From: Aquimarina agarilytica ZC1
Lineage (GTDB): Bacteria; Bacteroidota; Bacteroidia; Flavobacteriales; Flavobacteriaceae
Assembly (NCBI RefSeq): GCF_000255455.1
Contig: NZ_JH621259.1
Coordinates: 1 to 64,000 of the forward strand
Length of the DNA stretch: 64,000 bases
Direction: 5' to 3'
Positions 2,046-20,968 of the stretch are shown here, one piece after another. The stretch's first letter is position 1, and every line of letters starts with the position of its first letter. A program made the translations under genes and the position numbers. The notes beneath the pieces were generated by a model. The model ran no database searches and was not told the DNA's origin. It saw nothing but the letters and a program-made list of their open reading frames with translations.

Positions 2046-3080
2046 TCAAGCATTTTCAATAAGCACTTGTTTTTCTCTTTTTATTATACTTGGTAATTTA
2101 TCTGAATAAATAATTATCCTATCACTTTTTACATCAACATTACTTGAATTTAATTTATCTAAATCGACTCTTAATTCAATGCCTGGAACTTTCGCTCTTA
2201 TCGTTATTAACTTTTTCCAATGTTGGCCGGACACCTTAAATTCAGGATCAATTACAACTCCTGAGGTTTCTGCATAATCCTTTATTTTCGAAGAAAGAGT
2301 TTCTCCATAAAAATGAGATGAGATATCATAAATATTGACTTTCCCTTTGTGTTCTGTTTTCACATAATCATGCACTCTTTTTTGAAATTCTAATTGATCA
2401 ATAGAATCTCCCTTTTCATCCAAAGGTGGGTCAATAGTCTTAAGTAAATTTATTAGATGTTGTGTGTTCTCACTATTCTTGATTAACCCATCTGCTAAAA
2501 TCCATTCTTTAAAATATCCAGATACATTTCCATCAGCTTGTGTTGTAATTATAGAAAGATATTTTCTGTCGTCAAATTCAGACTTAAATATTGTAAAATT
2601 CAAACGAGCAGCCATTGCTGTTTTCTCAATATTTACATTCTCAGTTTTATCTAATATATAATTATCTTCTTTTCTAATGATATTAATCCCTGATCGCTTT
2701 CTTAAAAGTACAACCATAACAAAATGTTTGGAATCTACACTATAATCACAAAAAAGGAAATAGCCACCTTTCGCAAAATTCTGTTTCTGGATTTTCTGTC
2801 TCAAGATTTCTAATGAATAAGAGAATTGGATAAACCTATCATCAGAAGAATCATCTAAATACTTTAAAAGATCATCTTTAAAACTATTTGACTCATTCTC
2901 TTTAAATGTCGCATTTTTCTTACTAGAGCTATCGCTAATAGAATTATGCAACTCTAATATTAATTGCTTCGCAAAAGCATCAATCTTTAGTAAATGTTCA
3001 GAATATTCAATTGATGCTTTTGTGCTTTGTTCCTCTTTTTCTAAATGGTGTACAACAACTCTAGTAATTTTTAGACTCAT
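2046..3080 (-). CDS. NdpA/YejK-family nucleoid-associated protein
   Basis: The 344-residue product matches the layout of the 37-kDa nucleoid-associated protein family (NdpA, YejK; PF04245). It starts with 'ITRVVVHHLEK', has a middle 'GGYFLFCDYSVDSKHFVMVVLLRKRSGINI' segment equivalent to the family's GYLLFxxYxxxxxxFLLVxLLxxKxG core, and a later part with 'YLSIITTQADGNVSGYFKEW', typical of the family's YLSFIxGRxxxxVSxYF region. Chromosomal members bind DNA, but this copy sits on a mobile element directly before a membrane protein gene, so a cargo role such as defence is more likely than nucleoid packing. The start is taken as the ATG at 3080 rather than a TTG at 3086. Identification is by motif memory only. 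Confidence 0.7.
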   Translation of the reverse strand: MSLKITRVVVHHLEKEEQSTKASIEYSEHLLKIDAFAKQLILELHNSISDSSSKKNATFKENESNSFKDDLLKYLDDSSDDRFIQFSYSLEILRQKIQKQNFAKGGYFLFCDYSVDSKHFVMVVLLRKRSGINIIRKEDNYILDKTENVNIEKTAMAARLNFTIFKSEFDDRKYLSIITTQADGNVSGYFKEWILADGLIKNSENTQHLINLLKTIDPPLDEKGDSIDQLEFQKRVHDYVKTEHKGKVNIYDISSHFYGETLSSKIKDYAETSGVVIDPEFKVSGQHWKKLITIRAKVPGIELRVDLDKLNSSNVDVKSDRIIIYSDKLPSIIKREKQVLIENA

Positions 3081-3141
3081 ATTCAATAAATTATGAATAT
3101 AAATCTAACATACTATTCTAAAATACAAAAGGTTATATGAC

Positions 3142-3654
3142 TTATTTATTAAAGTTTGTAACTATAGAATATCGATATCTAAATACACTAGTGCGCACCA
3201 CTCTAAATTGCCCTATGGTAGTATCCCAACCTAGTGGAGTAACTAACCCCATTTTTTTAAGTTTAGAACGACTTACATTCTCATTCTCTTCTGATTTGAT
3301 AAGTTGTTCTAAAATCCTCTCGTCTGGAGATAACATAGGTTTCTTGGGCATAGGCCTCTGGGATTCAATTGGTTTTTCTTTTACTTCTTCTAAAACAGGT
3401 TTAGATTCAGCAATAGCTTCCTCGATTTCGTTGAACTCCATGCGGTCTGCATATTCTTCTTCGATATCTTCCACAATTTCTAAATCTAAGGCTTCTAGTT
3501 CAGTCAGTAAATTTCCTTTTTCACATTCAGAAACTGTATCCAATAGCTTTTGCATACGATTGAAAATCTCAATTTTCTCTTGAATGGGCTGCAAAAGTAA
3601 GGATACTTCTAATTGATTTCGCTTTAAAAATAATTGATGTTCGATACGTTTCAT
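3142..3654 (-). CDS. Conserved-looking unknown protein, 170 aa
   Basis: I do not recognise this protein. The N-terminal half is helical and acidic (a run rich in Glu and Asp around residues 50-75), the middle is Pro and Lys rich (residues 88-108), and the C-terminus (about 110-170) is a small basic domain that may be a helix-turn-helix or OB-like DNA-binding fold. It is the last gene of a tightly packed leftward series that starts near 17.6 kb, lying 10 bases after the small membrane protein gene. The acidic linker suggests a modular protein that bridges two partners; that is inference. Confidence 0.6.
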   Translation of the reverse strand: MKRIEHQLFLKRNQLEVSLLLQPIQEKIEIFNRMQKLLDTVSECEKGNLLTELEALDLEIVEDIEEEYADRMEFNEIEEAIAESKPVLEEVKEKPIESQRPMPKKPMLSPDERILEQLIKSEENENVSRSKLKKMGLVTPLGWDTTIGQFRVVRTSVFRYRYSIVTNFNK

Positions 3655-3664
3655 AAAGTTAGAA

Positions 3665-3916
3665 TTAAGCGGTTACTAATTGGGGAGTTAAGTTTTCACT
3701 AGATTCTAGTGATTTTTCGATAATACTAGATAATGCCGCAGTAGCCACAGAAGTAGCTAAGACAATACCTGTGGTTTTCAGTAGCTCTTTTCCTTTAGGC
3801 ACTTGAAATTTGAATTGCTCTTTATTGGAATTCTTACCTAGATTATAATAGATCAGAGCTTCTGCCAGTCCAATAGCCAATCCTGCTCCTGTAATGATTA
3901 ATACCTTTTTATTCAT
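3665..3916 (-). CDS. Small membrane protein with two hydrophobic helices
   Basis: The 83-residue product has hydrophobic segments at residues 5-25 and about 48-66, both rich in Gly and Ala, separated by a basic loop. It fits a small inner-membrane hairpin protein. It has only three bases between it and the upstream gene, so it belongs to the operon-like block. No family is recognised. Confidence 0.6.
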   Translation of the reverse strand: MNKKVLIITGAGLAIGLAEALIYYNLGKNSNKEQFKFQVPKGKELLKTTGIVLATSVATAALSSIIEKSLESSENLTPQLVTA

Positions 3917-3919
3917 GTG

Positions 3920-4498
3920 TTACTTTTTATCAATTACTTTTTCAAATTTTTCTTTAATCTGCTCCTGCCCTTTTTCAATACGGAGGTCACTCATTTTGAA
4001 AGTATTCATAATATTGCGATGTGCTCTAAGTAGTATTTTTCTTGCTTCCTTTTGTACCTCTTTATTTTCTTTTAAAGTAGGAGGAATCAGATTGGCTATA
4101 GAAATAAAATGACCTTTAATCTTAGCATGTCGAGTTGGTTTTGGCTTTTGGGGCTTTCCTTTTCTTTTCTCATCATTGTATGCTCGAATCTTTGCTCGAC
4201 AAGCTTTAATATCGGCATCTAATAACTTCAAATCTTCATCTATAGATTTGATGGTAGCCTTATCCTTAGATTCTTTTTTAGAAGTACCCTCTTTCTTAGG
4301 TTTTTCTTTTTCTAAAGCTTCAGGAGCGCTTCGTTCTACCATTTTATAGACCTTCTCGATATTCTCTTTAGCAATTGTTTCAAAGGCTTTTTTATCTGCT
4401 GTATTTTCATAATCTTCTAATAAAGATTTGACAGCAGCTTGTAAAAGGGTCGGTTGCACTTTTTCTAAATCCAGTGCTTGTAATTGTTTTATCGTCAT
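3920..4498 (-). CDS. Lysine-rich unknown protein, 192 aa
   Basis: This is an unrecognised, strongly basic and helical protein. A Lys/Glu-rich linker lies around residues 70-95, followed by a helical heptad-like segment (about 98-120), a basic patch rich in Lys and Pro (122-140) and a C-terminal amphipathic helix. The composition suggests nucleic-acid or coiled-coil contacts. It is packed between neighbours with three-base gaps on both sides, which points to one transcript. Confidence 0.6.
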   Translation of the reverse strand: MTIKQLQALDLEKVQPTLLQAAVKSLLEDYENTADKKAFETIAKENIEKVYKMVERSAPEALEKEKPKKEGTSKKESKDKATIKSIDEDLKLLDADIKACRAKIRAYNDEKRKGKPQKPKPTRHAKIKGHFISIANLIPPTLKENKEVQKEARKILLRAHRNIMNTFKMSDLRIEKGQEQIKEKFEKVIDKK

Positions 4499-4501
4499 GG
4501 G

Positions 4502-4813
4502 TTATGCGGCTATTTGTAATTCTAGTTCTAACAAGACTAAGGCTCTAGCACGTTCTTGTTCCTGGATTCGTAGGTATTCTTGGGTATCTTTTGATTTTGG
4601 AGACTTACTGCTCTTTTGATAAATTTCGTAGAGTAAGGCGTCAGCCTCTAAGGCTTTATCATCAGCCTTTTGAAAGTGTCCTGAATTATTTCGAATCACT
4701 TCCCAAGCTTTGACTAAATCAAGAGGGCTTCCCGTGAGTTCTTTGATTTCTTTTTGATTGGTAATACTTACTTTTTTGAGTTCCTTTGGAGTAAAATCTT
4801 TAGTTTTGTACAT
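4502..4813 (-). CDS. Unknown small protein, 103 aa
   Basis: A short soluble, mostly helical protein with a Lys-rich N-terminus and a Glu/Leu-rich C-terminal helix. No motif or family is recognised. Its reality is supported by tight spacing (two to three bases) with genes on both sides in the same direction. Confidence 0.55.
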   Translation of the reverse strand: MYKTKDFTPKELKKVSITNQKEIKELTGSPLDLVKAWEVIRNNSGHFQKADDKALEADALLYEIYQKSSKSPKSKDTQEYLRIQEQERARALVLLELELQIAA

Positions 4814-4815
4814 AA

Positions 4816-5130
4816 TTATAAGGTGTGATCTATGGCGTATTGTTGTTGATATACAGGTTCTAAAGACCAGAAAAAAGCATTTGCTTCTTCTTGGTTACTG
4901 TAATGAATAGAACAAAGTTGCGGTGTTCCATCTAATTCGAAACATTCGTAGCGATAGCATTGTTTCGGATTATCAAAATCAGTAAGATCAATACAGTTCC
5001 ATTGTAAAATCAAGGCATCAGGACGCATTTTAGAAATCATGATTCTAAAATCTCGACACTGATTTGGTGTTGCTTTATTGATTTCAATGGCTCGATTCAT
5101 TATGATATTGATGACTTCTTTTTTAAGCAT
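4816..5130 (-). CDS. Unknown small protein, 104 aa
   Basis: An unrecognised protein with a mixed alpha/beta appearance and several aromatic residues in the second half. The Cys residues are spaced irregularly and do not form an obvious zinc site. Its ATG overlaps the last codons of the VWA-like gene by eight bases, which implies translational coupling with that gene. Confidence 0.55.
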   Translation of the reverse strand: MLKKEVINIIMNRAIEINKATPNQCRDFRIMISKMRPDALILQWNCIDLTDFDNPKQCYRYECFELDGTPQLCSIHYSNQEEANAFFWSLEPVYQQQYAIDHTL

Positions 5131-6139
5131 GAGTGTTAGGATTATTGGAACTGTAATTTTCTAGAATGGTAGTGACCTCTCTTACGGCTGCTTCAATAGA
5201 GTAACTTTGTTCAAAAACAAAAGCTTTAGGGTTGATCTGCTTTACAAATTCATTCCCCATCTTACTTTCGATACTCCCTAAACTATTTGGGATATTAAGT
5301 CCAAAATAATTTGATATAGAGATGAGACTTTTAAAACCTTTATACCTAAAGAATCTAGGATCTGAAGCCAATAAGAGCAGCTGATTTTTATCTAATGGAT
5401 CTTGAAAACGTTTTACACAAACAACATTCATCAGCTTGTGTGTATTAAAACTCGTACCAAGAAGTACATTTACCTGAACTGGGATTTGACGTTGTTCTAA
5501 AAAATCTACAAGTTCACCACAAGCCAGTCCTACATACAATAATTGATCTCCACCCAACTGCGCATTTGCTCCAGCTAATAAATAAAGTTCTATCGCTGGA
5601 AGTTGATTTTGTTTTTGAGAAAAAGAAGTATAAACTTCCTTAACTGAAGTATGAAATGATATCTTTTGTAACTCCACATTCATCTGACTGATTCTAGTAT
5701 CGATGGGTGCTGATGTATTTATAGCATATTGCTTCGATAGTGCCATAGCCGCTCTATCGAAAGAAAATATTCCTAAACCTTTATTGTTGTAATCAAGTTT
5801 TGGTTTTAGAAGCTTTTGATCTGCTAACTTGTATAGATAAGGTTCGAGTTTTCCTTTTAGTTTGGGACGTACTTTCTCAAGCAAATACATTCCTAAAAAC
5901 TGTTGATGATTCTCTAATTCATCTACACTTTTAGGAATTGGTGTTCCAAACCAATTCTTTCCTTGCTGTATGAATTCGCTTGCGGCACCCTCAATACGAT
6001 TCCAAACCTCTTTATTGCTAGCGTTCAACTGCTGAATTTCAACATTACAAAAAGCATGGAAATCTACTATACTATTGAATTGTAAATAGTGGTAGGTTTC
6101 TTGCCTTTTGCTGATGGTATGTTTCTTTGGTCGTCTCAC
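5123..6139 (-). CDS. Possible VWA-like partner of the MoxR-type ATPase
   Basis: This 338-residue protein begins with a GTG codon. The N-terminal half contains 'AASEFIQQGKNWFGTPIPKSVDEL', close to the entry region of phage and plasmid VWA-like proteins found beside MoxR ATPases. The C-terminal half alternates strands and helices ('IELYLLAGANAQLGG', then a helix, then 'IPVQVNVLLG') and ends with 'PLDKNQLLLLASDPRFFRYKGF', which resembles the closing segment of those VWA-like folds. The MIDAS signature DxSxS is not visible, so metal binding may be lost. The nearby leftward AAA ATPase gene supports the pairing. This is a fold guess from sequence pattern and context; an unrelated protein is possible. 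Confidence 0.45.
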   Translation of the reverse strand: MRRPKKHTISKRQETYHYLQFNSIVDFHAFCNVEIQQLNASNKEVWNRIEGAASEFIQQGKNWFGTPIPKSVDELENHQQFLGMYLLEKVRPKLKGKLEPYLYKLADQKLLKPKLDYNNKGLGIFSFDRAAMALSKQYAINTSAPIDTRISQMNVELQKISFHTSVKEVYTSFSQKQNQLPAIELYLLAGANAQLGGDQLLYVGLACGELVDFLEQRQIPVQVNVLLGTSFNTHKLMNVVCVKRFQDPLDKNQLLLLASDPRFFRYKGFKSLISISNYFGLNIPNSLGSIESKMGNEFVKQINPKAFVFEQSYSIEAAVREVTTILENYSSNNPNTHA

Positions 6140-6231
6140 TTGTTTTAAAATTATGAGATAACCGAATTTTTAAAAGGTCTTTATTTTGTAATTCAGTACG
6201 CTTGTTGATATATTTAATCGAAAATCGATTG

Positions 6232-6921
6232 ATGTACAGGAAGATCCATATTGACTTTCAAAAAGATGAATACTGCTATTTTTGCAATTCCAATAAATTA
6301 TTAAAGAAGGGAATTCTATTAATAGATACTCAAACCAATAAGAGATATATTTCAAGCTTGACATGTATTGAAAAGGTCAAAAATGAAATCTATAATTACG
6401 ATGAAAAAATTCCTGATTTAACAAGAGGTGTTATTTCTTTGGCTTCTAACTCTATGGGAAGCACTAAAAACCCTAGCAACGAATTAGTAAGAATAATGCC
6501 TCCTTTAGAATATCTAATATTAAGACAAAACAAATTACAAGACTTTAAAGGAATATCTTATTGGAAAATCGAAGATATTTATCAGTATTATTCTAAATTT
6601 TTTATTATCACTCCACAGCAAGAAAAAAGATTACTTGGATTAATTCAAACTACTAAAGCCAAATTTCCCCATTTAGCTCCCCGAAATTTACAAAAAGTCT
6701 ATGCAGCCTCATATTGGCTGAATTATTCTATTGAAAAGCAATACAACAAAAAATCCAAGGACTTCTTAAATAGTGTTTTACAATTTTATAAAACTAAAGG
6801 TTTTGTAACAACAGCTCAAGAAAAATATGTTCAAAAAACTTTAGAATGGCTGAATGATTCTTTAGATAACAAATTCAAAAAAGTTCCTAGAATTGAATTT
6901 CCTCAGTTTTGCTCGCAATAA
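6232..6921 (+). CDS. Unknown protein, lone rightward gene in the block
   Basis: A 229-residue soluble protein that I do not recognise. Near the N-terminus it has a CxxC pair (residues 15 and 18) and a third Cys at 45, which may be a small zinc knuckle; the rest is helical and basic. It is the only rightward gene between 3142 and 17623, inserted between the VWA-like gene and the ATPase gene, and it converges on the ATPase gene with five bases between stops. The start is the ATG at 6232 just after an AATCGA-AAA-TCGATT inverted repeat; an upstream TTG at 6202 is less likely. It may be a later insertion with its own promoter. Confidence 0.6.
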   Translation: MYRKIHIDFQKDEYCYFCNSNKLLKKGILLIDTQTNKRYISSLTCIEKVKNEIYNYDEKIPDLTRGVISLASNSMGSTKNPSNELVRIMPPLEYLILRQNKLQDFKGISYWKIEDIYQYYSKFFIITPQQEKRLLGLIQTTKAKFPHLAPRNLQKVYAASYWLNYSIEKQYNKKSKDFLNSVLQFYKTKGFVTTAQEKYVQKTLEWLNDSLDNKFKKVPRIEFPQFCSQ

Positions 6922-6926
6922 TATAT

Positions 6927-7877
6927 TTAACCAATCCTCCTTTTAAACTCGGTAATAAACTCCTGTTTCATAGTACTTCCTTTATATGAATTCAAAAAGG
7001 TTTCCAAATTGATTTCTTCTTTGATATGCTTTGCTTTTTCTAGATTTATAGCTAAGAAATAACTCTCAATCGCATCTTTTAAAGTTTTACCATTAGGAAT
7101 TTTACGAAAGGTTTTTCCAAACTCATCTTTCATTCCCGTTTCTCGTTTCATCTCTAACTCGTAGATGCGCTCTAGGTTCAGCATAGTACGAAGGGTCATG
7201 ATATCCTCCGTATCATCATCACTAATAGATCGTCCTTCGTAATTTAGAATCGCTTTTCTAATGGCTACACAAATATTGAAAACCGCAGGATACACAACAG
7301 ATCGCTCTAAGGTTTCATTGTAACCAATTCTGTAAATACTTCCACTAAAACGATCTAATAAAGAAGCATCTTGCTTATTATTCCCTATATAATTGGTACT
7401 CATTCCTTTCCCAAGAACATTACCCGTGGCAATACATCCAAAATTCCGATGCTTCTTTATAGGTTCATTTTTACCATTGAAAATGATTGCTTTCTCTTTA
7501 GCGCTTTTAGCTAAGGCATCATTGAGTAATCCTGCGGTATTGGGATCGAGCTTGGGCAGCTCATCTAAAATGAGAATTTTACCATCGCGCCATGCTTCTA
7601 TCAAAGCCCCTTCTTTATAGCCTTCCATGGTCTGCCCTCCTTTGATATCAATGGGAGAAGTCCATTGATTGCAATTCACCGTCACAAAAGGAAGCCGTTT
7701 TCCATCATTTTCATTGCGACCGAAAAGTGCGTAGGCTACTTTTTCTCCGAGGGTACTTTTTCCTGTTCCGGCGCTTCCCACTAAGAAAGCATTATTTCCA
7801 ACACTAAGATCATCCACAATTTTCATAAAATTTGGAATCTGTTCTATTTCGGGGATATCTAATTTTAAATGGTTCAT
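6927..7877 (-). CDS. MoxR-like AAA+ ATPase
   Basis: A 316-residue AAA+ ATPase. Walker A is GSAGTGKS at residues 34-41, Walker B is ILILDE at 101-106, and a polar sensor region 'CIATGN' follows near 150. The size, the short N-terminus and the DEL-type Walker B fit the MoxR/AAA_5 group, whose members work as chaperone-like motors, usually with a VWA-domain partner; a candidate partner is encoded next in the same direction at 5123-6139. Its ATG overlaps the stop of the giant helicase gene as ATGA, so the two are translationally coupled. A DNA-processing or protein-remodelling role with the helicase is inferred from context. Confidence 0.85.
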   Translation of the reverse strand: MNHLKLDIPEIEQIPNFMKIVDDLSVGNNAFLVGSAGTGKSTLGEKVAYALFGRNENDGKRLPFVTVNCNQWTSPIDIKGGQTMEGYKEGALIEAWRDGKILILDELPKLDPNTAGLLNDALAKSAKEKAIIFNGKNEPIKKHRNFGCIATGNVLGKGMSTNYIGNNKQDASLLDRFSGSIYRIGYNETLERSVVYPAVFNICVAIRKAILNYEGRSISDDDTEDIMTLRTMLNLERIYELEMKRETGMKDEFGKTFRKIPNGKTLKDAIESYFLAINLEKAKHIKEEINLETFLNSYKGSTMKQEFITEFKRRIG

Positions 7878-10800
7878 CGTAAAGCAAGTTGTAATTGATT
7901 AATAAGTTCATCTATATCGGCAATGGCAGCTATGGTATCTTCATAAAAGACCCTTCCTAATTCTTGTGGACTATACCTACCAAATACAAATTCAGGGTTT
8001 CCATCTTCATGAGGGTGATTCAAAATAAAATATCCCAAACTTTCAATAGCATCTTGTAGCGATAACTCCATCGCCTTTTGAACTATAGTATTATAATCTT
8101 TCTTTAAAGCTCCAGCTAACGTAGCTGCTTTCCATTGAGCGTACGGGATTTCAGCACTTTTAAAAATGGGAATTAATGAATAGTTGTAACGCTCTTTATC
8201 TGATAGTGAGCGATTATATACTACTATACCATTCGGATATATTTGATCAGGTTCCTGGTAACTCACAAAACCAGCTGCAGGATTACTTTCTTGTCCATAA
8301 GGTCTTCCCAGTTCATATTGATATTTTCCTTTTTGAGAAGCAGTTTTGTTTTTCCAGTCCGTTTCGTTTTCTATTTCCCAATCTTCTAATTCCTTAGCTG
8401 CTCCCATATATTTTACTCCATAGAAATTCAGACGCCTTAAAAAGGCTGCTACATTTTCCTGATGTAATGCTGCTGTCATTTCTCCAGCATTTTGAACAAA
8501 ATCAGCTAACTCATCTTTATCCTGACCTTCCTCTTTTTTAATAAGCTTTCGAAGTAAGGGGTCTAAAGCAGCTTTATACAATTGTGCCTTGTTTAGATAC
8601 ACCTGAAAATAGTTAGCACTAATTCGCTTGATGGTAAAAACTAGTTCATGATCTTTAAAGAAATCATCGACTTCTAAAGTGGAAATAACTGATAGCGCAT
8701 CGCCAATAGAAAGTAGTGCCGTTTCTGTTTCCCCATCCTTACCATATTCCCTAGACATCAGTATACCATTCTTAATCAACCCATCTTTAGTATTGAACTT
8801 AATGAGTTTGTTTTGCGTTCCAATCTGATTTGAAGCACCAACGATATTTTCTGTTAAGATTTGGCGTCGCTCTCTTTTGGAAGAAGCTTTTTTTATCAGT
8901 GCATTCCATTCCAACTGCACATACTGAATATCCTCTTTGGTAATATCTCTACTTGCTGTGTAAATCTGACTGATAAAAGCTTGCTCGGCAGGTTGTAAAC
9001 TATACGTCAATAATTTTCTAGAATCTGCAACTACAAATTTGAAATGTATATTGCTATAGGTATATGGATTCTTCCCTTTCCCAATACTCATACCAAGAAA
9101 TATTCCCCATGAGGGAGTCAACGTACTTCCAACAAAAGGTACTTTCACTACATCGCCAATCACCCAGAAGTTCAAATAACGACTAATCGTTCGCTGTATA
9201 TTTTCTAGTCCTGCGACAAAAGTAGCTAGCTCCCTTGTTTTTTGGTGAATCAGTTCTTCGTGACGATTCCAGTCCGCAAGTATCTTTTCATTTTCTTCTA
9301 CAGTAGTACCACTTCCTCGCTTTGGCAATTGCTCTCGCTCCGCTTTTAAACGTTCAATCACTTGGAGCTTGGCTGCCTTTCGTTTTTCAATAAGCTTAGG
9401 GTACTCTTGATTCAGCACATCTTCTTGACGCAATCGAATTTGGAGTGGCTTTTCTCCACCAAGGATTTCTTCCAAACGATCATCCACTTGCTGTTTGGTA
9501 AATGGTCTCTTCAAATTATTGATGATAGTAACATCACGAACAGTATCTTTTCCAAAAGGCGTTGTTCCTCCATTTCCTTTCTGAAATAGAAAACGCTTTT
9601 TAATTGCTGCATCTAATGGTAAAAACTCCGTTTCTAAATCATACGTCCCTTGTTGCTTCTCTAAAGTTACTTGATGTTGATAGCGTTCTAGTAAATCATC
9701 ATACAAAGCATCTTGGTCTTCTACTTTCAAAAGTCCTGCTCTACCAGTCAATTGTCGAATAGCCCCTTGCTTAGTTTCTTGACGCTCATAGAAAATATTT
9801 CCATACTTGCCTGTTTTCTTGTAATACGTAGGATGTCCTAAACGCTCTAAATACTGGGGGTTTTCATCTATCCAGTTCCAAGCAGCGATGTCCCCATATT
9901 TATTTAAGAAGTCTGCACTTTTTAGTGTTTCATCATTGGTCTTTTGAGAACCTGTAGTATTGGCATCTAGTGATTTCAGCTTGGCTTTTAGCATAGTCAT
10001 TAGTCGCTTTTCTGTAGGAATATCACTGGTGATGTAGTAATATTCTGGCATTACCACCTGTCCTGTACGGTTGATACGACCTCGCTTTTGAATCTCGGTA
10101 TTGATATCCAACTCAAACTGATGTACAATCATGGCTCGTTGACGTTGATCTTTAAAATCTTTACTCGCATGAGCTGATGATCCTGTACTACCGCTTTGAT
10201 TGATTAACAACACATCAAATTCCCCTCTATTAAAAAGTCGGAAAGAACGTTCTGTATTACTTCGAAAAGCTTCTACACGAGGTATCTTTTCTGAAAGGTT
10301 GACACGTTGATTTCTACCTGTAACCTCAGTTACCTTAAAATACGCTTCTTTATGACCACCTAAATACTTTGGTTTCTTAGCTTTTTGAATGCTGTGAATC
10401 AATGCATCAATAGGAGAAATATTAAGACCCGAAGCTTCTAAAAGCATTCGTTTCTTTAGATCGTGATAGGCTTTTTGCCCCATTTCTGGTAATACTTCTA
10501 AAGGAATTTTCTCTTTAGTTTTAGTGCCATCAATTTGAGTATAGTTATAATGGAATATTCCGTCTAATCCTTTAACTAGCGTCCTAACAAAATCAATATC
10601 TTCTTTAGGAATTTCATCTCCACTAACTAAATTCAAGTCTTTTAAAAATGACCCCATCGTAGATTTAAAAGCAATCACTACTTTTTTGTCTTCCTTGAGA
10701 AGCTTGATTGTAAAATCTGCTACCTCTTCTACCTTCAACGCAAAAAGCATCTGGTCTACAATATTGAATACTCTTGAAAAGTAAGGAGATTGTTTCACCC

Positions 10801-12127
10801 CTAGCCCTCTAGGCTTAGATTTTAAATGTTCTCCTTGAGCTTTAGCATCGGAGTGAATTTCGATAAGAATCGGAGCTACATATTCTCGCTCGAATTGCAC
10901 CACCTCATTCATCAGTACAATGATTCGATTGACACTTTCTCTATTTTTACTACGTTGTGGTTCTTTATCTAAGGTGATATAATCTACTTTGATCCCCTCA
11001 TTAGAACGTTGTCTACGAATCAATTGCCCACTTTCTGCTAGATTCGCTGCTACAATTTCTTGTAAGGCTAAACCTCCGCTAGTCATTGATCGCACAAATG
11101 CTCCATCAGTAAGCCCTGTCTCTGAAATTGCCGTCTTCTTAGCATAAAATGGCATCACCTCTGGATATTTAGCAAAAGTGGCACTTAAAAAGCAACAAGC
11201 TTTAGTGTCTGGTAATACCTTTCGCATCCATGTACCAATATTAGATTCGAAACCTCCTGCCATGTGAGATTCATCTAAAATGAAAACCACTCGCTTATAT
11301 TTTTTGCTTCCTTCAACTCCTCGGCTCACCAAACTTTCTAACCATAATCGCTTATAGGGATGTGCTGCCTGAATCTGAGAATAGGTAGCAAAGATCATAT
11401 CATATCCTTCTGGTAAATAATCAATGGGTTCTGCAATAGAAACCGTAGGATGCGTTGATGGATTAGGAAGGTTCTTTCCCACTTTTCGATGCCAATCCAT
11501 AGACTCTTGGCTTTCCGTAGGATATTCCATTTCATTAGCAATAAGCTCGTATTGTTCCTTACTAGATAAAGGGCTATAAATGACAGTTCCATCAGCATCC
11601 TTAATTCGAGCCTGACTATCTGTATTCAAGATAAAAGGATGAATATCGTCAAAGCCAATTGCCTTTAAATCTCGATACATATCGGTAAATAAATCTGGCT
11701 TTTTAGTAAAAAATACAGGTAAGTAACCTTGCATAACTGCATGACGAATTACTGCTGCTGCTTGTCTTCCTTTTCCAATTCCCGTCTGATCAGCAATGAT
11801 GATTCCTTGCTCATTCTCAAATTGCTTTAAATACAATCCCACCGCATCTACTTGTTCGGCGCTTAATGCTTTCCATAATTTCTTAGTAGAATCGTATTTC
11901 AACTGATTACGAACAAAATGATCTATATTTCCTTTTTCCTTGACTAGGCGGTTCATAGACTTCTGTACTTCATAAGCCATATTTCGTGGAATCAAGGTTT
12001 CCATGCGAAAAGTCGCTTGCGATTTAGGTTCATAAGGAACTAATGCACTTTGTTCAGCAACAATAGCATTCACTTGTGCTTTGTCTACACTCGTTTCTTC
12101 TTGGATTTCAATAGTGGTTGTATTCAT
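7874..12127 (-). CDS. Strawberry-notch-type superfamily 2 helicase, 1417 aa
   Basis: A very large helicase-like ATPase. Residues 112-121 read ADQTGIGKGR, the distinctive Walker A of the strawberry notch family; the DExH box is DESH at 285-288, motif III 'LSATF' follows near 314-318, and motif VI is QKRGRINRTGQ at 680-690 after 'LLINQSGSTGSSAHAS' (640-654). The C-terminal 700 residues have no motif I can name. Prokaryotic members occur on phages, plasmids and integrative elements, often fused to or beside a DNA methyltransferase, as in the DarB anti-restriction protein of phage P1. Here the methyltransferase is a separate gene nearby. ATGA overlaps at both ends show coupling to the ATPase gene and to the small gene upstream. 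Confidence 0.9.
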   Translation of the reverse strand: MNTTTIEIQEETSVDKAQVNAIVAEQSALVPYEPKSQATFRMETLIPRNMAYEVQKSMNRLVKEKGNIDHFVRNQLKYDSTKKLWKALSAEQVDAVGLYLKQFENEQGIIIADQTGIGKGRQAAAVIRHAVMQGYLPVFFTKKPDLFTDMYRDLKAIGFDDIHPFILNTDSQARIKDADGTVIYSPLSSKEQYELIANEMEYPTESQESMDWHRKVGKNLPNPSTHPTVSIAEPIDYLPEGYDMIFATYSQIQAAHPYKRLWLESLVSRGVEGSKKYKRVVFILDESHMAGGFESNIGTWMRKVLPDTKACCFLSATFAKYPEVMPFYAKKTAISETGLTDGAFVRSMTSGGLALQEIVAANLAESGQLIRRQRSNEGIKVDYITLDKEPQRSKNRESVNRIIVLMNEVVQFEREYVAPILIEIHSDAKAQGEHLKSKPRGLGVKQSPYFSRVFNIVDQMLFALKVEEVADFTIKLLKEDKKVVIAFKSTMGSFLKDLNLVSGDEIPKEDIDFVRTLVKGLDGIFHYNYTQIDGTKTKEKIPLEVLPEMGQKAYHDLKKRMLLEASGLNISPIDALIHSIQKAKKPKYLGGHKEAYFKVTEVTGRNQRVNLSEKIPRVEAFRSNTERSFRLFNRGEFDVLLINQSGSTGSSAHASKDFKDQRQRAMIVHQFELDINTEIQKRGRINRTGQVVMPEYYYITSDIPTEKRLMTMLKAKLKSLDANTTGSQKTNDETLKSADFLNKYGDIAAWNWIDENPQYLERLGHPTYYKKTGKYGNIFYERQETKQGAIRQLTGRAGLLKVEDQDALYDDLLERYQHQVTLEKQQGTYDLETEFLPLDAAIKKRFLFQKGNGGTTPFGKDTVRDVTIINNLKRPFTKQQVDDRLEEILGGEKPLQIRLRQEDVLNQEYPKLIEKRKAAKLQVIERLKAEREQLPKRGSGTTVEENEKILADWNRHEELIHQKTRELATFVAGLENIQRTISRYLNFWVIGDVVKVPFVGSTLTPSWGIFLGMSIGKGKNPYTYSNIHFKFVVADSRKLLTYSLQPAEQAFISQIYTASRDITKEDIQYVQLEWNALIKKASSKRERRQILTENIVGASNQIGTQNKLIKFNTKDGLIKNGILMSREYGKDGETETALLSIGDALSVISTLEVDDFFKDHELVFTIKRISANYFQVYLNKAQLYKAALDPLLRKLIKKEEGQDKDELADFVQNAGEMTAALHQENVAAFLRRLNFYGVKYMGAAKELEDWEIENETDWKNKTASQKGKYQYELGRPYGQESNPAAGFVSYQEPDQIYPNGIVVYNRSLSDKERYNYSLIPIFKSAEIPYAQWKAATLAGALKKDYNTIVQKAMELSLQDAIESLGYFILNHPHEDGNPEFVFGRYSPQELGRVFYEDTIAAIADIDELINQLQLALR

Positions 12128-12546
12128 TTTCCAAAAGCACTTAAAGTTTCTAAATAGCTACGTAGGGTGATTTGAGCATATTTTTGCGTGATTTCTTCTT
12201 CAGATATCCCTTGTCCGAAGAATAATCCTTCTTCTACTGTATCTCCTTGCTTTTGATGCCAGCTTTCTTTTAGCATTCCAAGAGCGGATTGCATGGTATC
12301 GGTATGCATCAGAAAATCTGAAATCTCATTTACCATATTACCATCATTGTAACTTACCTCTAAATAATCTTCGATTAAAGCAATAGGCATTTCGCCTTCG
12401 GCTATAGCTTGTTTGATAAGCTCATTAAGATGGAAATGAAGGGCTGCTTCGTGATCTTCATAACGTTCAAAACTCTCTGGATTTGAAACTATAAATAAAG
12501 TGATAGCTGCATCGTCTGGCATCAGCTGTGGGTTATAGTATATCAT
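12124..12546 (-). CDS. Unknown acidic protein between helicase and methylase
   Basis: A 140-residue acidic, helical protein that I do not recognise. It overlaps the methyltransferase stop by one base (TAATG) and the helicase start by four bases (ATGA), so it is made in step with both. Such a position suggests a structural or bridging subunit of the same complex, but that is inference from gene order only. Confidence 0.6.
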   Translation of the reverse strand: MIYYNPQLMPDDAAITLFIVSNPESFERYEDHEAALHFHLNELIKQAIAEGEMPIALIEDYLEVSYNDGNMVNEISDFLMHTDTMQSALGMLKESWHQKQGDTVEEGLFFGQGISEEEITQKYAQITLRSYLETLSAFGK

Positions 12547-14861
12547 TAAAGTTGTGCTGTTTTTAGTTGTTGAATAAGTGTAGGTACACTAGGTCTAAGG
12601 TGAAGACTTACTTCTTCCCATAAATCCATAAAGCTATCGATGACTTTATCTAAATGTGGAGTTTCATGTTTGGTAGGTGCAACCCCATTGGGTATCAACT
12701 TTCTCCCATTAATAAGCACTAGCATAGTCTGTGTTACTGCTCCTTGTTTATTGTAAAGCTTAAAACTATTGAGATTGATAATATCATCCACATAATAGTG
12801 TCGGTATAACCAATTAAAGAAAGGACGATATTTGGCTATGAATCCATAGTTATCAAAATACACATGCCCCATTAGCATAAGCGCACCTCTTCCTTCATCC
12901 TTCATACTGTTTAGGGCAATAGCTGACATCAAATGTTCCAATCTCAGATGTCTTGGTAGTATATGGTGCTTCCCAAAATATTTATGGATGATGCGCATTT
13001 TATCAAACTCCGAAGCTTCCCACTTAGCAAATGGTGGATTGGTGACCACCACATCATAGGCTTTAGTCATAGAAGGAATAAAAGGCTCGGCGGCATTGAG
13101 CCTAGTAACCTCTTTAAACCCTTGAAACCTCAGAGATTTCTTTCGACTCTTATCAATCTCATTAACATGAGTCTTATTAGGATCAGCGCCCATAACCAAT
13201 AATCCATTTCCTGCACTAGGCTCGAAAATGAGATCAGCAGCTTTCATATTGGTATATTCTGCAATCATGGCCCCAATGGGACATGGAGTAGAATACTGCT
13301 TGTAGAGTTCTTTGCTACTATCGGAATACGCATAAGTAGGTTGTACCTTCTCCCAAAAATGAATTATCTTTTGCAGTCTAGCTTCAAAAGAAATAGGCTC
13401 TCGATATAATTGTTTGTACCACAATAGCCAACTTAGTTCTACTGCTTCCCACAGCATACCTAGATTTGGAGAACCTGTAGTTTCTTTAAGGGCTTCTATT
13501 TTCTTTTTAGACAAGCGTTCGTCCTTTTCAAAATGTTCGTGCATTGTGGCAACCACACGATCTAGATAATCCTTATTTTCTTGAGAATTTTGCTTTGTAG
13601 CTTTTAGCTCTTCTTGTTGCAGAGTTTCTTTAGGACTAGGCTTTTCTTGACTTGCTGTTGAATCTAAATACTCTTGTAGAACCTGTTTCGAAGCCTCTAC
13701 TCTTTCAATATCCCATTGTAGTTCTCGATATTTTTCTTTGGATTCCTTGTTAGATTTAGGTTTTCGAGTTTTAGAGTTTGTGTATTCCTCTTGCTGTTCT
13801 ACAAGCTCTTGTAAAACTTCTTCTGTAAGCGCAATTCCCTTTTCAATATCTGCTACAGGTCGCCAATTATCCGCTACACCCCACCACGAAGGAGTTCTTG
13901 AAAATTTAAAAAGTACTTTTTCTAAGCGTTCTACACTTTTATATGTTGTATTAATATTTACATAAGGGTAATTCAGATCCGTTGGAAAACCGATTTCTTT
14001 AAAAACACTTTCCCCTCTATTATCCCATTCACTAAGCAACGAAGATCGATTCACATCGATATCGTAATCCGTCGGATGAGATAGTTGTATCAATTGAAAT
14101 AGCTGTACTGCTGACGCTTTAGATAAATCTTCATTCGAAATGTTGTACAACTCCTTAAAACGATGCTTTAGAAACTGAGTAGCACCAATGGTAATATTTC
14201 CAGATTGAAAAGGCTCTTTAGCCTTTATGGGTACTAACACATTCCGTACCTGATATCCTCGTAAGAAAATATCCTTGGGTTTAGAGGTGGTTGTAGGAGC
14301 TTCATTTTCTAAATCAAGTGCTGTTTGGACTTCTTGTGGAGTTGGTATTTCTACCTCCTTAGGAGAAGTTTTTTCGATGGTAGTGACAATCTTCTGTTCT
14401 CCGAAAAGTTGACGAGCTCTCTTTTTATAGTTTCTAGGAAAGACTTTTATTTCTTGTAAACTATCTCGATACTTTTCCTCTCCAAACTTCTGCGCTATTG
14501 CGTAAGCAACCTTTTTATAAGAATCAAATACTACATAACTTTCCTCTCTTGTACCATCGGATGTATTAAAACAAAAAGTAACTACACTAAACTTGTTTTG
14601 ATCTATGTTTTCTAAGGAAGAAGAAAAAGAAGGTCGAAGTGGAATGGCTTCCCATGAATCTCCATTAGTAATCGCCTCTTTTAGATCATTAGCATAAGTC
14701 ATATATGCTGGATGCAGATCTGCATACCATTCTTTTGTTGAGCTAAAGGATTCTTTAAACCCAACTTCTTTTAAGTAAATAGCAAGTGCCTTAGGAAGTT
14801 CTTCTTGAAATTTCAATTCCAAGCGATTCTTAACACTATTTTTTACAACTTCTAAATTCAT
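12546..14861 (-). CDS. N6-adenine methyltransferase-like protein
   Basis: Counting from the ATG at 14861, this is 771 residues. The SAM-binding motif I is FEPSAGNGLL at about 546-555 and the catalytic motif is NPPF at 608-611, which together indicate a class I N6-adenine DNA methyltransferase. Residues 1-400 lack recognisable motifs, and residues 345-435 are Glu/Lys rich and probably coiled coil. No restriction endonuclease domain is visible. A longer frame starts at 14894 but would begin inside a hairpin (14865-14893), so the ATG directly after that hairpin is preferred. The enzyme precedes the strawberry-notch helicase in one transcript, as in DarB-like anti-restriction or DNA-modification sets. 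Confidence 0.8.
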   Translation of the reverse strand: MNLEVVKNSVKNRLELKFQEELPKALAIYLKEVGFKESFSSTKEWYADLHPAYMTYANDLKEAITNGDSWEAIPLRPSFSSSLENIDQNKFSVVTFCFNTSDGTREESYVVFDSYKKVAYAIAQKFGEEKYRDSLQEIKVFPRNYKKRARQLFGEQKIVTTIEKTSPKEVEIPTPQEVQTALDLENEAPTTTSKPKDIFLRGYQVRNVLVPIKAKEPFQSGNITIGATQFLKHRFKELYNISNEDLSKASAVQLFQLIQLSHPTDYDIDVNRSSLLSEWDNRGESVFKEIGFPTDLNYPYVNINTTYKSVERLEKVLFKFSRTPSWWGVADNWRPVADIEKGIALTEEVLQELVEQQEEYTNSKTRKPKSNKESKEKYRELQWDIERVEASKQVLQEYLDSTASQEKPSPKETLQQEELKATKQNSQENKDYLDRVVATMHEHFEKDERLSKKKIEALKETTGSPNLGMLWEAVELSWLLWYKQLYREPISFEARLQKIIHFWEKVQPTYAYSDSSKELYKQYSTPCPIGAMIAEYTNMKAADLIFEPSAGNGLLVMGADPNKTHVNEIDKSRKKSLRFQGFKEVTRLNAAEPFIPSMTKAYDVVVTNPPFAKWEASEFDKMRIIHKYFGKHHILPRHLRLEHLMSAIALNSMKDEGRGALMLMGHVYFDNYGFIAKYRPFFNWLYRHYYVDDIINLNSFKLYNKQGAVTQTMLVLINGRKLIPNGVAPTKHETPHLDKVIDSFMDLWEEVSLHLRPSVPTLIQQLKTAQL

Positions 14862-14864
14862 AAA

Positions 14865-14935
14865 TGCGGTACTTCTCAGCGAAAAGTACCGCACTAGTAC
14901 TCTTTTTTAAAAGTTCATAATGGTACCTAAGTACC
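14865..14935 (-). promoter_or_regulatory. GTAC-rich hairpins before the methyltransferase gene
   Basis: A perfect 10-bp stem (TGCGGTACTT at 14865-14874 with AAGTACCGCA at 14884-14893, nine-base loop) ends three bases before the methyltransferase ATG. A second inverted repeat GGTAC-CTAA-GTACC lies at 14922-14935, and an AGTACT lies between them. The arrangement could hide or expose the start codon, or be a repressor site. In the plus direction the first hairpin is followed by a T run, but both flanking genes read leftward. Confidence 0.5.
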
Positions 14936-14937
14936 TC

Positions 14938-15537
14938 CTAGGAGAAACTTTTTTTAACTAAGGCTTCACGCTCTAGGTTCTTGGTTTCGTAATCACCATA
15001 ATTTTCTGCAAACCATTCGCCTTGTTTTTTGTGGGTACTGATGTGCCCATTCAGTTGCTTGGCAATAGCAAAACACTCTCCACATTCAGGGCACTTAAAA
15101 GGCTTCATTTCTATTTGGATTCCTGCTTCTAGGATTGCGTGAATACGCTTTACTTCTAGCGAGGACTCGCTGCGAACTTCAGTATTTTCAGTAGCTCCCA
15201 ATTTATCCCCTGAATAAAATAGATGACTAAAACTGAATATCGTTGCCGATAGCATCACACAAATCAGTAACGCACTCCAAACACTTTCTGGATAGAATTG
15301 ATATACTAAATTGTGAGCTAACGTACCGAAGAAATAAGCTATCGCTACTTTTTTCCATCCCTTAACAGTAAAAATTAAAACGGCTAAATCGACACCGAGG
15401 GCATACGCCCAGCTCCACCAAGGAGCATGGTACTGACTATTAATTTTAAAAACATAAACGGTATGCGCTACTTGGGGAACTAATAGTAAACTGAGAGCAA
15501 AAATTCCAAAAGCTTCGTTAAGAATGAGTTTTTTCAT
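14938..15537 (-). CDS. Membrane protein with a single C2H2 zinc finger
   Basis: A 199-residue protein with about four hydrophobic segments (roughly residues 9-30, 42-58, 63-82 and 85-107), then a soluble tail carrying one C2H2 finger: Cys149, Cys152, His165 and His169, spacing C-X2-C-X12-H-X3-H. The tail is predicted to be cytoplasmic. Classical C2H2 fingers are rare in bacteria but occur in small proteins of Bacteroidota mobile elements. A membrane-tethered nucleic-acid or protein-binding finger is unusual. It lies between the methyltransferase gene and a run of three genes upstream. Function is unknown. Confidence 0.65.
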   Translation of the reverse strand: MKKLILNEAFGIFALSLLLVPQVAHTVYVFKINSQYHAPWWSWAYALGVDLAVLIFTVKGWKKVAIAYFFGTLAHNLVYQFYPESVWSALLICVMLSATIFSFSHLFYSGDKLGATENTEVRSESSLEVKRIHAILEAGIQIEMKPFKCPECGECFAIAKQLNGHISTHKKQGEWFAENYGDYETKNLEREALVKKSFS

Positions 15538-15545
15538 GTGACCAC

Positions 15546-15830
15546 TTATTTGAAGGAATTTTCTACTGCTAAGGATTTCTCATCTCCTTCATAGAACTTA
15601 GCTAAAACTTCACCAGATTGCTTATCGTAAATAGCAATAGTACCTGCTAATACACCGTATTTCTTGATGAGCTTTTTAAAACGTTGCATTCCCAATTGTT
15701 GGTCTTTTTGCTTGGAAAATTTGTGCTTCCAATCAATCGAGTACATGGTACGTACATTGCCATCTTTAAACCAAACAATCATTTTCATAGAAGAATCTTC
15801 TCCCAATTTCCATCCTTTTCTATCACTCAT
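15546..15830 (-). CDS. Unknown small protein, 94 aa
   Basis: A basic protein with several short predicted strands and one helix ('QQLGMQRFKKLIKKYG'). I do not recognise it. It overlaps the upstream gene by four bases (ATGA), so it is part of the same transcription unit. Confidence 0.55.
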   Translation of the reverse strand: MSDRKGWKLGEDSSMKMIVWFKDGNVRTMYSIDWKHKFSKQKDQQLGMQRFKKLIKKYGVLAGTIAIYDKQSGEVLAKFYEGDEKSLAVENSFK

Positions 15831-16315: not shown

Positions 16316-16324
16316 ATTGAAATA

Positions 16325-17623: not shown

Positions 17624-17728
17624 AAGTAACGTCAAAAGTCCTACCTCAGTTATTTGAAACTGTCAGTAAAGACAATGCGTACAGGGTGCGCTATTGGCTG
17701 CCTTTTTCTCTTTTCTTAGAGAAGCTTT

Positions 17729-17974
17729 TTAGTTTTCTAAAATTTCCTTGCTACGTGCTACAAGTGCTTTTCGCTTAGTTTCTTTAGCTTCTATTAAATC
17801 CAAACAAAGCTCATATATTGTTTCTTCACTACTAGGACGCACTTTTTCTAGATTGAAAAATTTAGAAACTGTAGGTCGAGATAACTCTGTTCGCTCCATG
17901 ATTTCTTTCACAGGACTATCATATAATCCATGCATCCTAGAAACCACTTTTTTGGCTTCCTCTAATAACTCCAT
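17729..17974 (-). CDS. Small XRE-type helix-turn-helix regulator
   Basis: An 81-residue protein dominated by a helix-turn-helix ('VKEIMERTELSRPTVSKFFN', residues 22-41) of the XRE/Cro sort. It is transcribed away from the regulator gene at 18128, with the two promoters back to back between them. It probably controls the divergent promoter region or the leftward block that follows it. Confidence 0.7.
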   Translation of the reverse strand: MELLEEAKKVVSRMHGLYDSPVKEIMERTELSRPTVSKFFNLEKVRPSSEETIYELCLDLIEAKETKRKALVARSKEILEN

Positions 17975-18826: not shown

Positions 18827-18827
18827 C

Positions 18828-19154: not shown

Positions 19155-19322
19155 GTGTCAAAATCATTAGCACAAGTAAAAGCCAATAGTAATTTTAATG
19201 CTACTTGGTTGAAGAAATTTAAAGGATTCGAAAATTATAGCGATAAGCAAGCTGAAGAAACGGTAAAAGTTCTCCAAGAACTAGCAGCAATTGCTTGTCG
19301 CCATATTCAAAATACAAGTTAA
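19155..19322 (+). CDS. Small protein directly upstream of the recombinase
   Basis: A 55-residue protein starting with GTG, sequence beginning SKSLAQVKANSNFNATW and ending HIQNTS. Its stop is two bases before the recombinase ATG, so the two are coupled. Small helical proteins of this type often precede large serine recombinases in Bacteroidota elements, where they may help as directionality or accessory factors; that role here is inference. Confidence 0.55.
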   Translation: MSKSLAQVKANSNFNATWLKKFKGFENYSDKQAEETVKVLQELAAIACRHIQNTS

Positions 19323-19324
19323 TA

Positions 19325-20941
19325 ATGTCTGATTTATCAATATTTAATCAATTTGCAAAGAAATCTAATACTCCACAACTAAAAACGGATGGTAAAGCGG
19401 TAATCTATACACGTGTTTCTACCAAAGAACAAGCTGAAAATAATGCCAGTCTTGAGACTCAGCTTAAATACTGCAAGGAATGTGCTTCTAAAAAGGGATT
19501 AGAAGTCATAGAATACTTTGGAGGGACTTACGAATCCGCTAAAAGTGATGAGCGTAAAGAATTTCAAAAAATGCTTTCTTATGTAAAGCGTAGAAAGAAT
19601 ATCGGTTATATCATTGTTTATTCTTACGACCGTTTTTCAAGAACAGGTGCTAATGGAGCTTACATTAGCGATCAGCTTAAAAAACAAGGAATAGTTACGA
19701 TTTCAGCAACCCAAGAAGTAGATACATCTACAAGTGCTGGGTCTTTTCAACAGAATCTATACTATATGTTTTCTCAATTCGATAATGAATTAAGAAGGGA
19801 TAAGTCTGTATCAGGTATGAAAGAAAAGCTTAGAAAAGGATATTGGGTTGGCGGATTCCCTTTCGGATATTCCAACAGAAACCCTGGTAAAGGAAAGAAC
19901 CCTGATCTTTATATCAACGAAAAAGGAAAGCTTTTAAAACAAGCATTTGTCTGGAAGGCTGAACTAAATATGTCTCATGTAGAAATAGCAAAAAAACTTC
20001 AAGCAAAAGGGGTAAAAACCAACGATAAAAGAATTAGTGATATGTTTAGAAACCCTTTTTACTGTGGATTAATAGTAAATTCATTGATACCAGGGGAAGT
20101 TATTGAAGGGAAGCATCCTCCACTCATCACTAGGGAAATGTTCTTAAAAATTCATAATTTGTTAGAAGTAGGAGAAGAACCTAGAGCTTATAGTATGGAT
20201 GATGAAAACCTTCCACTTAAGATCTTTTTACGATCAACAACATGTGGAACTCCCCTTACTGGATATATCGTCAAGAAAAAGAATCTTTACTACTATAAAA
20301 ATAGGCGAAAAGGCAGTCGTGAAAATAAAAGTGCAAAAAAATTACACTTACAGTTTGAAAGCTTGTTGAGTCAATATACTATTCAAGACAAAAAATATAT
20401 AGCGCCTTTAAAGGAGATCATCTACAAAGCATTTGTAGATATGAATAAAGAGCGAATCAGAGAAAATGAAATTGTAGTAAAAGCAATTAAAGAGATTGAT
20501 AAAAAACTAGACCGATTAGAAGAAAGATTCGTTTTTGAAGAAATTAATAGTGACCAATACAAAAGATTCAAAGGTAGACTCGAATCTGAAAAGGTTGAAA
20601 AAGAAAATTTATTATCATCTTCTGAGTTTAATAGTTCGAACCTTAAAAAAGCAATAGAAAGAGCTTTAAAAATAGCTCTTAACCTACCTAAAATGTGGAG
20701 TTTAGGAGATATTGAAACCAAAAGAAAAATTCAATATATGCTATTTCCTGAAGGTTTGGGGTATGACTTCGAAAACGACCGAGTTCGAACTTTTCGAGTA
20801 AACTCAATTTTCAACGTAATCAGCAGTATTTCAGACAAAAAAGAGTCAAAAAAAAAGCGAAATCAACACTATAAAAGTGAAGATTCCGCTTTGGTGACCG
20901 CGGAGGGATTCGAACCCCCAACCCTCAGAGCCGAAATCTGA
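19325..20941 (+). CDS. Large serine recombinase (integrase) ending in tRNA-Arg
   Basis: A 538-residue large serine recombinase. The catalytic Ser32 lies in YTRVSTKEQA; the resolvase domain runs to about residue 165 ('YDRFSRTGANG' is the typical DRFSR block), followed by a recombinase domain (about 175-275) and a long C-terminal coiled coil (about 375-470). The zinc-ribbon region near 304-331 is degenerate: only Cys307 remains and the other expected Cys positions are Ser304, Asn326 and Ser331. The last 15 codons (VTAEGFEPPTLRAEI) are read antisense through the tRNA-Arg gene, so integration is into that gene. The start is the ATG at 19325; the TTG at 19295 would overlap the small gene. Serine recombinases using tRNA genes are less common than tyrosine integrases. 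Confidence 0.9.
   Translation: MSDLSIFNQFAKKSNTPQLKTDGKAVIYTRVSTKEQAENNASLETQLKYCKECASKKGLEVIEYFGGTYESAKSDERKEFQKMLSYVKRRKNIGYIIVYSYDRFSRTGANGAYISDQLKKQGIVTISATQEVDTSTSAGSFQQNLYYMFSQFDNELRRDKSVSGMKEKLRKGYWVGGFPFGYSNRNPGKGKNPDLYINEKGKLLKQAFVWKAELNMSHVEIAKKLQAKGVKTNDKRISDMFRNPFYCGLIVNSLIPGEVIEGKHPPLITREMFLKIHNLLEVGEEPRAYSMDDENLPLKIFLRSTTCGTPLTGYIVKKKNLYYYKNRRKGSRENKSAKKLHLQFESLLSQYTIQDKKYIAPLKEIIYKAFVDMNKERIRENEIVVKAIKEIDKKLDRLEERFVFEEINSDQYKRFKGRLESEKVEKENLLSSSEFNSSNLKKAIERALKIALNLPKMWSLGDIETKRKIQYMLFPEGLGYDFENDRVRTFRVNSIFNVISSISDKKESKKKRNQHYKSEDSALVTAEGFEPPTLRAEI
20892..20941. other. Attachment-site region (right end) within tRNA-Arg
   Basis: The recombinase frame overlaps the 3' half of tRNA-Arg from 20892 to its stop at 20941. 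Since the tRNA is intact, the incoming element must carry an equivalent 3' segment, and the crossover lies in or near this stretch. The exact core cannot be set without the other end. Confidence 0.5.
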
Positions 20942-20968
20942 TATTCTATCCAGTTGAACTACGCAGCC
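20892..20968 (-). tRNA. tRNA-Arg (anticodon TCG)
   Basis: The minus strand folds as a full cloverleaf. The acceptor stem GGCTGCG pairs with CGCGGTC (one G-T pair at each of positions 2 and 4), followed by A and an encoded CCA. The D stem is GTTC/GAAT, the anticodon stem TCAGA/TCTGA, the loop TTTCGGC with anticodon TCG (reads CGA, Arg), and the T stem GGGGG/CCCTC with loop TTCGAAT. It is complete at 77 bases and serves as integration target of the element on its 3' side. Confidence 0.95.

Follow-up and report, generated by a model that had tools for sequence, protein, structure and literature searches.

A recurring pair of a YejK/NdpA-type gene and a phrog_5023 membrane gene on mobile DNA is a candidate two-component anti-phage module

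Introduction

Do the YejK/NdpA-type gene and the membrane-protein gene that follows it in Aquimarina agarilytica ZC1 belong together, and if so, do they defend against phages or serve the mobile DNA that carries them? The two genes lie near the start of a 64,000-nt stretch of contig NZ_JH621259.1 (hereafter the window), and an earlier note, made from the letters of the window, had read them as a mobile DNA-sensing and membrane-effector pair of possible anti-phage function. Proteins of the YejK type associate with the nucleoid, and work cited in PMC10561277 reports that they act together with topoisomerase IV. Related genes also occur on mobile DNA: an NdpA-like gene of phage phi2LM21 is mentioned in PMC5537653, in that passage without its partner, and NdpA/YejK genes are described as recently acquired in two Pseudomonas phages (PMC10305613). 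A link to defence comes from a study that used DefensePredictor and validated 42 anti-phage units in E. coli (PMC13092281, Science 2026); in the part of its text available to us, "a YejK nucleoid-associated domain" is one of 10 domains newly validated in defence, and an E. coli unit with this domain protects against phage. No paper naming the pair was found in a search of the literature without preprints and without most subscription papers; the accessible part of PMC12409358, which came up as a candidate, concerns Fis and wonAB instead.

Results

The pair encodes an NA37 protein and a phrog_5023-family membrane protein

Both open reading frames are intact and separated by 2 bases: the NA37 gene starts with ATG at 3080 (with an in-frame TTG at 3086) and its stop codon occupies 2046-2048, and the membrane gene runs from ATG at 2043 to 841 (Table 1). 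The first protein scores 113.9 bits against PF04245 (gathering score 24.6, E 1.3e-32), with residues 9-324 aligned to positions 1-317 of the 325 of the profile, which places it in the NA37 family and bears out the NdpA assignment of the earlier note. It also matches phrog_3767, "nucleoid associated protein" (E 2.6e-42), and its closest solved structure is YejK 9be2 (9be2_A, E 4.1e-14). Its score against the YejK equivalog NF001557, 122.3 bits, lies below the cut-off of 341, and the host genome has a second NA37 gene elsewhere (G000:C32). We propose, from these profile matches, that the first gene would supply the DNA-binding subunit of the pair.

The second protein matches phrog_5023, a family of unknown function, over its full length (E 1.9e-12, residues 6-382 on profile positions 3-403 of 412) and thus belongs to it. 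It has no match over cut-off in Pfam and none at E 0.01 in NCBIfam, and neither protein of the pair matches any PADLOC family at E up to 10, a search in which the HMMER filters drop most weak matches. In a hydropathy profile, residues 286-314 and 350-384, both in the C-terminal half of the membrane protein, stand out as strongly hydrophobic segments, and 9 of the 25 family members examined have an extra weak hydrophobic segment just ahead of them. Alignments show that the N-terminal part of the family is variable and that the stretch preceding the membrane segments is the most conserved; a helix at residues 218-282 is seen only in a low-confidence model. The structure models of the membrane protein (mean pLDDT 43) and of the NA37 protein (mean pLDDT 45) were both set aside as below the quality needed for a fold search, and being this poor they support no interface or channel. 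Weak Pfam matches of the membrane family (MPC, GtrII, 7tm_7 and others) were rejected, as they differ from member to member, and so were its PDB profile matches, which are scattered and weak (best E 0.0019 and 0.065).

Table 1. Features of the window and of related Acinetobacter loci
Feature	Position	Strand	Evidence
phrog_5023-family membrane protein, 400 residues	841..2043	-	phrog_5023 match, hydropathy, alignments
NA37 (YejK/NdpA-type) protein, 344 residues	2046..3080	-	PF04245, phrog_3767, solved YejK 9be2_A
Bacteroidota-type promoter-like sequence TTTG-N18-TAGATTTA, upstream of pair	3100..3129	-	relaxed pattern
Large serine recombinase of the pair-carrying element	19295..20941	+	PF00239 94.2 bits, PF07508 44.8 bits
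tRNA-Arg (anticodon tcg), overlapping the end of the recombinase ORF	20892..20968	-	ARAGORN
Third gene after the pair, Acinetobacter loci	L017:6648-7352, L019:8671-9333, L020:3814-4452, L063:6983-7615

The pair appears to be cargo of an integrated element

A large serine recombinase gene lies further into the window and overlaps a tRNA-Arg gene, which is likely the border of the element; from about 21 kb, past the tRNA, follows what we take, from the starts of its proteins, to be a division and cell-wall cluster. The contig begins at base 1 of the window, so the other end of the element falls outside the sequence. The G+C content of the pair is 26.5%, compared with about 35% for the rest. Together, the recombinase, the tRNA overlap and the low G+C content make the pair look like low-G+C cargo of an integrated element, in agreement with the mobile setting first supposed for it. 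Among the genes between the pair and the recombinase, one encodes a 1417-residue Strawberry-notch-type helicase, another an AAA_5 ATPase, and a third a protein whose Eco57I methylase match is below cut-off. A DUF7192 match, likewise below cut-off, is seen in a further protein encoded in the element part 5123-20941, and directly beyond the pair, at 43-474 on the minus strand, is a small Hcp/TssD-like ORF of the kind found in type VI secretion (PF17642, 24.8 bits, cut-off 25.8). Five neighbours on the other side (3145-6139, excluding the ORF at 3665-3916) have no Pfam match over cut-off.

Upstream of the pair is a promoter-like sequence of the form that we assume to be the Bacteroidota-type consensus; with it, the pair could be transcribed as a unit of its own. 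The relaxed pattern has 7 matches in the window with 6.28 expected by chance, so the match is weak on its own, and a stricter Bacteroidota promoter pattern has no match in the window.

The pair recurs across phyla and element types

A tblastn search with the membrane protein returned two plasmid records, both with an annotated nucleoid-associated protein gene immediately upstream. Profiles of both proteins were run on nine genome_contigs loci, Bacteroidota genomes, plasmids and phages. With each place counted once and a match in any membrane-family search accepted, there are 37 loci (the window; L004, L005; L012-L025; L059-L065; L072-L079; L081-L083; and the weak hits G053 and G344), L080 being a repeat of L063 and G261 the same place as L025. 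A same-strand NA37 gene, judged by profiles or, for L081-L083, by annotation, lies directly upstream of the membrane gene at 31 of the 37 loci, or 31 of 34 once weak matches are dropped. The loci that lack it are three plasmid loci with shortened and perhaps dead membrane genes (L076, L077 and L079). The discarded weak matches are G053 (E 8.4e-4, three stops), G344 (E 8.4e-4, one stop) and G261 (E 7.3e-4; 1.7e-5 with profile A1 in the longer locus L025, without NA37), at all of which a broader membrane profile is silent at E 10.

Measured in 25 pairs, the spacing of the two genes lies between -41 and +36 bases. Six pairs stand outside this set, which also served for the trees: at L012-L014, L019 and L082 the coordinates give overlaps of 1-11 bases, and at L020, counted as paired, a short NA37 ORF of 276 residues ends 251 bases ahead of the membrane gene. 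The hosts of the 31 pairs, where known, are Bacteroidota, alphaproteobacteria and gammaproteobacteria, and the carriers are plasmids, islands, temperate phages and E. coli prophages. Phages with the pair are Sinorhizobium phi2LM21, Klebsiella P7641 and Kp4865-4, Acinetobacter MD-2021a and two faecal phage contigs. Among 395 Bacteroidota genomes, two membrane-family profiles agree on five (G000, G502, G534, G214 and G350), each with an adjacent NA37 gene. In single-sequence searches, the window proteins have no relative in viral_contigs, and among 199 genomes of the window's own family the membrane protein has a single weak match besides its own gene in the window. The window proteins are about 17-23% identical to those of two gammaproteobacterial pairs. 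Because the pair recurs in other genomes and phyla, its pairing goes beyond chance, and the conservation on which the earlier note had made its reading depend is found.

In four Acinetobacter loci the pair is followed by a homologous third gene (210-234 residues with hydrophobic stretches, 25-73% identity; Table 1), a possible optional third component.

NA37 genes also occur without the membrane partner

The NA37 domain occurs in 82 of the 395 Bacteroidota genomes. The 30 loci with the best NA37 scores come from the window's own family and were mostly seen over 1.5 kb per side (almost nothing downstream at L036); none of them has a membrane-family neighbour, and the paired-NA37 profile reports none of these 30 loci even at E 10. 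With a paired NA37 of E. coli as the query, 68 phage records are found (44 of Vibrio and 15 of Pseudomonas), while membrane-protein queries find at most 7 in the same collection. The membrane partner was not found in the four NA37 phages examined (F116, PseuP_224, Vibrio H20 and Vibrio 219E41.2; L104-L107); in Pseudomonas F116 the NA37 gene follows exonuclease and single-strand-binding genes. NA37 on mobile DNA alone is therefore not evidence for the module. The earlier statement that NdpA homologues usually stand alone on chromosomes fits the common Bacteroidota gene, but phages, too, and at least one plasmid carry NA37 without the partner. On that plasmid, Pseudomonas aeruginosa pF023 (L092:3004-5645), the next gene starts 5 bases after NA37 and is annotated as coding for the DNA sulfur modification protein DndB, which may point to another NA37 partnership. 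In Gayadomonas joobiniege (L012:16491-18628) a second NA37 gene lies about 5 kb from the pair, and the 376-residue ORF that begins 8 bases beyond it matches the BrxHI helicase in part (8.5e-16).

In a tree of NA37 proteins, 25 of them paired and 12 unpaired, 2 changes of the paired/unpaired label suffice, and none of 500 shuffles gave as low a number; the set is small and hand-chosen, and some branches are long. One supported group (98/95) unites E. coli YejK with five unpaired phage and plasmid NA37 proteins, and the window protein groups with those of two Bacteroidota pairs (99/100). Inner support is uneven, with 7 of the 34 inner branches open. The tree includes six of the eight named housekeeping loci (L035 and L052 are absent), and the common NA37 of the window's own family (L029, L031, L033, L041, L043 and L054) is separated from the other NA37s by a very long branch (3.77). 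The distances in the trees of the two partners correlate (r 0.89, a value that none of 5000 permutations matched); since linked inheritance could by itself produce this, the correlation supports co-inheritance and not contact.

These distributions bear on the idea that the NA37 protein regulates its own mobile element by a chromatin-type control, with the membrane protein as a linked accessory. There is a precedent in the available text on PAPI-1, where NdpA2 together with TprA controls transfer of this integrative and conjugative element (PMC8565334), and NA37 relatives are present on 192 plasmid records, of which pF023, the one examined in this respect, lacks the membrane partner, as do the four phages. 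However, the partner is kept while the type of element changes from plasmid to island to lambdoid and Mu-like prophage, the paired NA37s fall outside the tree group of the unpaired phage and plasmid NA37s, and the five window neighbours described above have no Pfam match over cut-off. We consider this explanation improbable.

Copies in E. coli occupy cargo positions of prophages

In a distant blastn search of 5426 E. coli genomes, the pair of Klebsiella phage P7641 matches 39, none over 80% of the query, and its best 20 rows have 69% coverage and 66.6% identity and include both genes. The pair and flank of Kp4865-4 match 939 genomes, at least 14 of them at 80% coverage or more; of six further rows among the matches listed, two cover 17% within the pair and four the end of antiterminator Q alone. 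Megablast finds the L081 pair in 29 E. coli genomes and that of L083 in 2, with every match at 99% or more. These few matches indicate that the pair is rare in E. coli, as cargo should be.

At L081 and L082 the pair sits between antiterminator Q and the lysis region and is transcribed opposite to both; at L081 a DNA methyltransferase gene shares this interval. At L083 the pair lies ahead of a putative holin, in a prophage whose gene set we take to be Mu-like, and in Klebsiella phage Kp4865-4 a Q-like stretch adjoins the pair. Slots of this kind in prophages are a common place for genes of benefit to the lysogen. In several phages and prophages a DNA methyltransferase gene is annotated near NA37, whether paired or unpaired (L081:4320-5372, L065:2882-3718, L072:7925-8734 and L104:4386-6969).

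The positions between Q and lysis genes, ahead of a putative holin and beside a Q-like stretch would also suit a superinfection-exclusion or lysis-timing pair that serves the prophage and not general defence. However, some copies are found on plasmids and other DNA, with Qat and Gabija genes next to them, and the L081 and L082 copies are read opposite to the lysis genes, which leaves this explanation with little probability.

Known defence genes lie near some of the pairs

A PADLOC scan covered 141 of 172 neighbour proteins (at least 150 residues) from 19 pair loci; the 31 left out are mostly short ORFs, transposases and replication genes, with some longer proteins (for example at L023, L060 and L074). 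At E 1e-8 the two batches of neighbours match 47 and 331 PADLOC families, the latter figure inflated by many overlapping Gabija profiles, and the details given here come from the best 25 of each. Matches attributed to loci are QatA and QatB in L005, GajA and GajB in L059, PDC-S06 in L061 and HerA in L024, and ShosT (9e-96) and ShosA (1.5e-87) fall within L012-L018, with the exact locus unattributed. In the attribution scan, 4 of ten neighbour proteins have no match at 1e-20, and 8 of ten neighbour proteins of L012-L016 have none at 1e-12. The control, drawn from four Bacteroidota genomes at ten arbitrary places of 20 kb each, consists of 125 of 126 proteins (one being over the length limit) and matches 17 PADLOC families with a best E of 2.1e-43; mad3, mad8 and AriA matches, seen among the neighbours, also arise in it. 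PADLOC matches are thus stronger for the pair neighbours than for this small chromosomal control, which is unmatched for host phylum and mobile DNA, so that the comparison is a contrast and not a test. One pair thus has both Qat genes nearby and another both Gabija genes; the neighbours of the window pair, scanned by Pfam and partly by NCBIfam, include no named defence system.

Discussion

We conclude, with a probability of about two in three, that the two genes form a mobile two-component anti-phage (or anti-mobile-element) module with a DNA-binding and a membrane subunit. This conclusion draws on the neighbourhoods compared with the control, the cargo positions in E. coli prophages and the phage protection reported, in the text available, for the YejK unit (PMC13092281); they lend the defence role first guessed for the window pair support short of proof. 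Unpaired NA37 on phages and the NA37 regulator of PAPI-1 conjugation (PMC8565334, as far as its accessible text goes) speak against a defence role.

Less probable still than the two explanations weighed above is a toxin-antitoxin-like pair in which NA37 restrains a membrane toxin for element stability first and defence second: the tight order with a DNA-binding-type gene first and a membrane gene second is known from toxin-antitoxin modules, but typical membrane toxins are small, unlike this protein of about 400 residues with its large soluble part, and shortened membrane genes occur without NA37 (L076, L077 and L079), though these are possibly dead.

If the two genes are a defence module, the soluble part of the membrane protein would tether the NA37 subunit to the inner membrane, and foreign DNA, incoming or newly replicated, would be bound there by this subunit. 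Our tentative first choice for the next step is that the complex might block use of the bound DNA at the membrane, as described for Kiwa. Ranked second, and rather unlikely, is an abortive outcome in which the membrane protein, triggered by DNA binding, would damage the membrane. A broader and doubtful generalization is that a family of nucleoid proteins has become part of an immune complex, tethered to the membrane, that would recognise a state of foreign DNA and shut this DNA down there; DNA topology is one example of such a state, given the reported action of YejK with topoisomerase IV. If this were true, the complex would be a third route beside Kiwa and Zorya, spread over at least two phyla and used by plasmids, islands and prophages against rivals, and should the DNA-binding part sense a property of foreign DNA, immunity would be a new use of the nucleoid-protein family. 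Meanwhile, a hypothetical gene pair has become a recognisable, widely spread module with tractable copies in E. coli, the phrog_5023 membrane family is now linked to defence, and there is a partner candidate to seek in the YejK-domain system of 2026.

Several known systems resemble the pair in part. ZorA and ZorB homologues of Zorya were not found (no PADLOC family at E up to 10, weak matches mostly filtered). With housekeeping YejK/NdpA the pair shares a common domain family, 9be2 being the closest solved structure; it differs in the equivalog score (122.3 bits against 341) and in that E. coli YejK falls in the unpaired tree group. NdpA2 of PAPI-1 is likewise an NA37 protein on a mobile element, but it controls conjugation alongside a ribbon-helix-helix regulator, according to the accessible text of PMC8565334. 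In Kiwa, as described in the available part of PMC12904381, KwaA is in the membrane and KwaB binds injected DNA without cutting it. The pair has the same layout of two genes, one membrane-embedded and one of DNA-binding type, but neither window protein matches the KwaA or KwaB profiles at E up to 10, and the DNA-binding-type protein here is NA37; the best reading is that the module works somewhat like Kiwa and is not a Kiwa member. The DefensePredictor YejK unit shares the YejK/NA37 domain with the window pair. The legend of Fig. 3C of PMC13092281 gives transmembrane (TM) and coiled-coil (CC) labels among its systems, and these would fit the membrane partner described here. The pair is probably a divergent member of the family behind this validated E. 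coli unit, with the likeness at the level of the domain.
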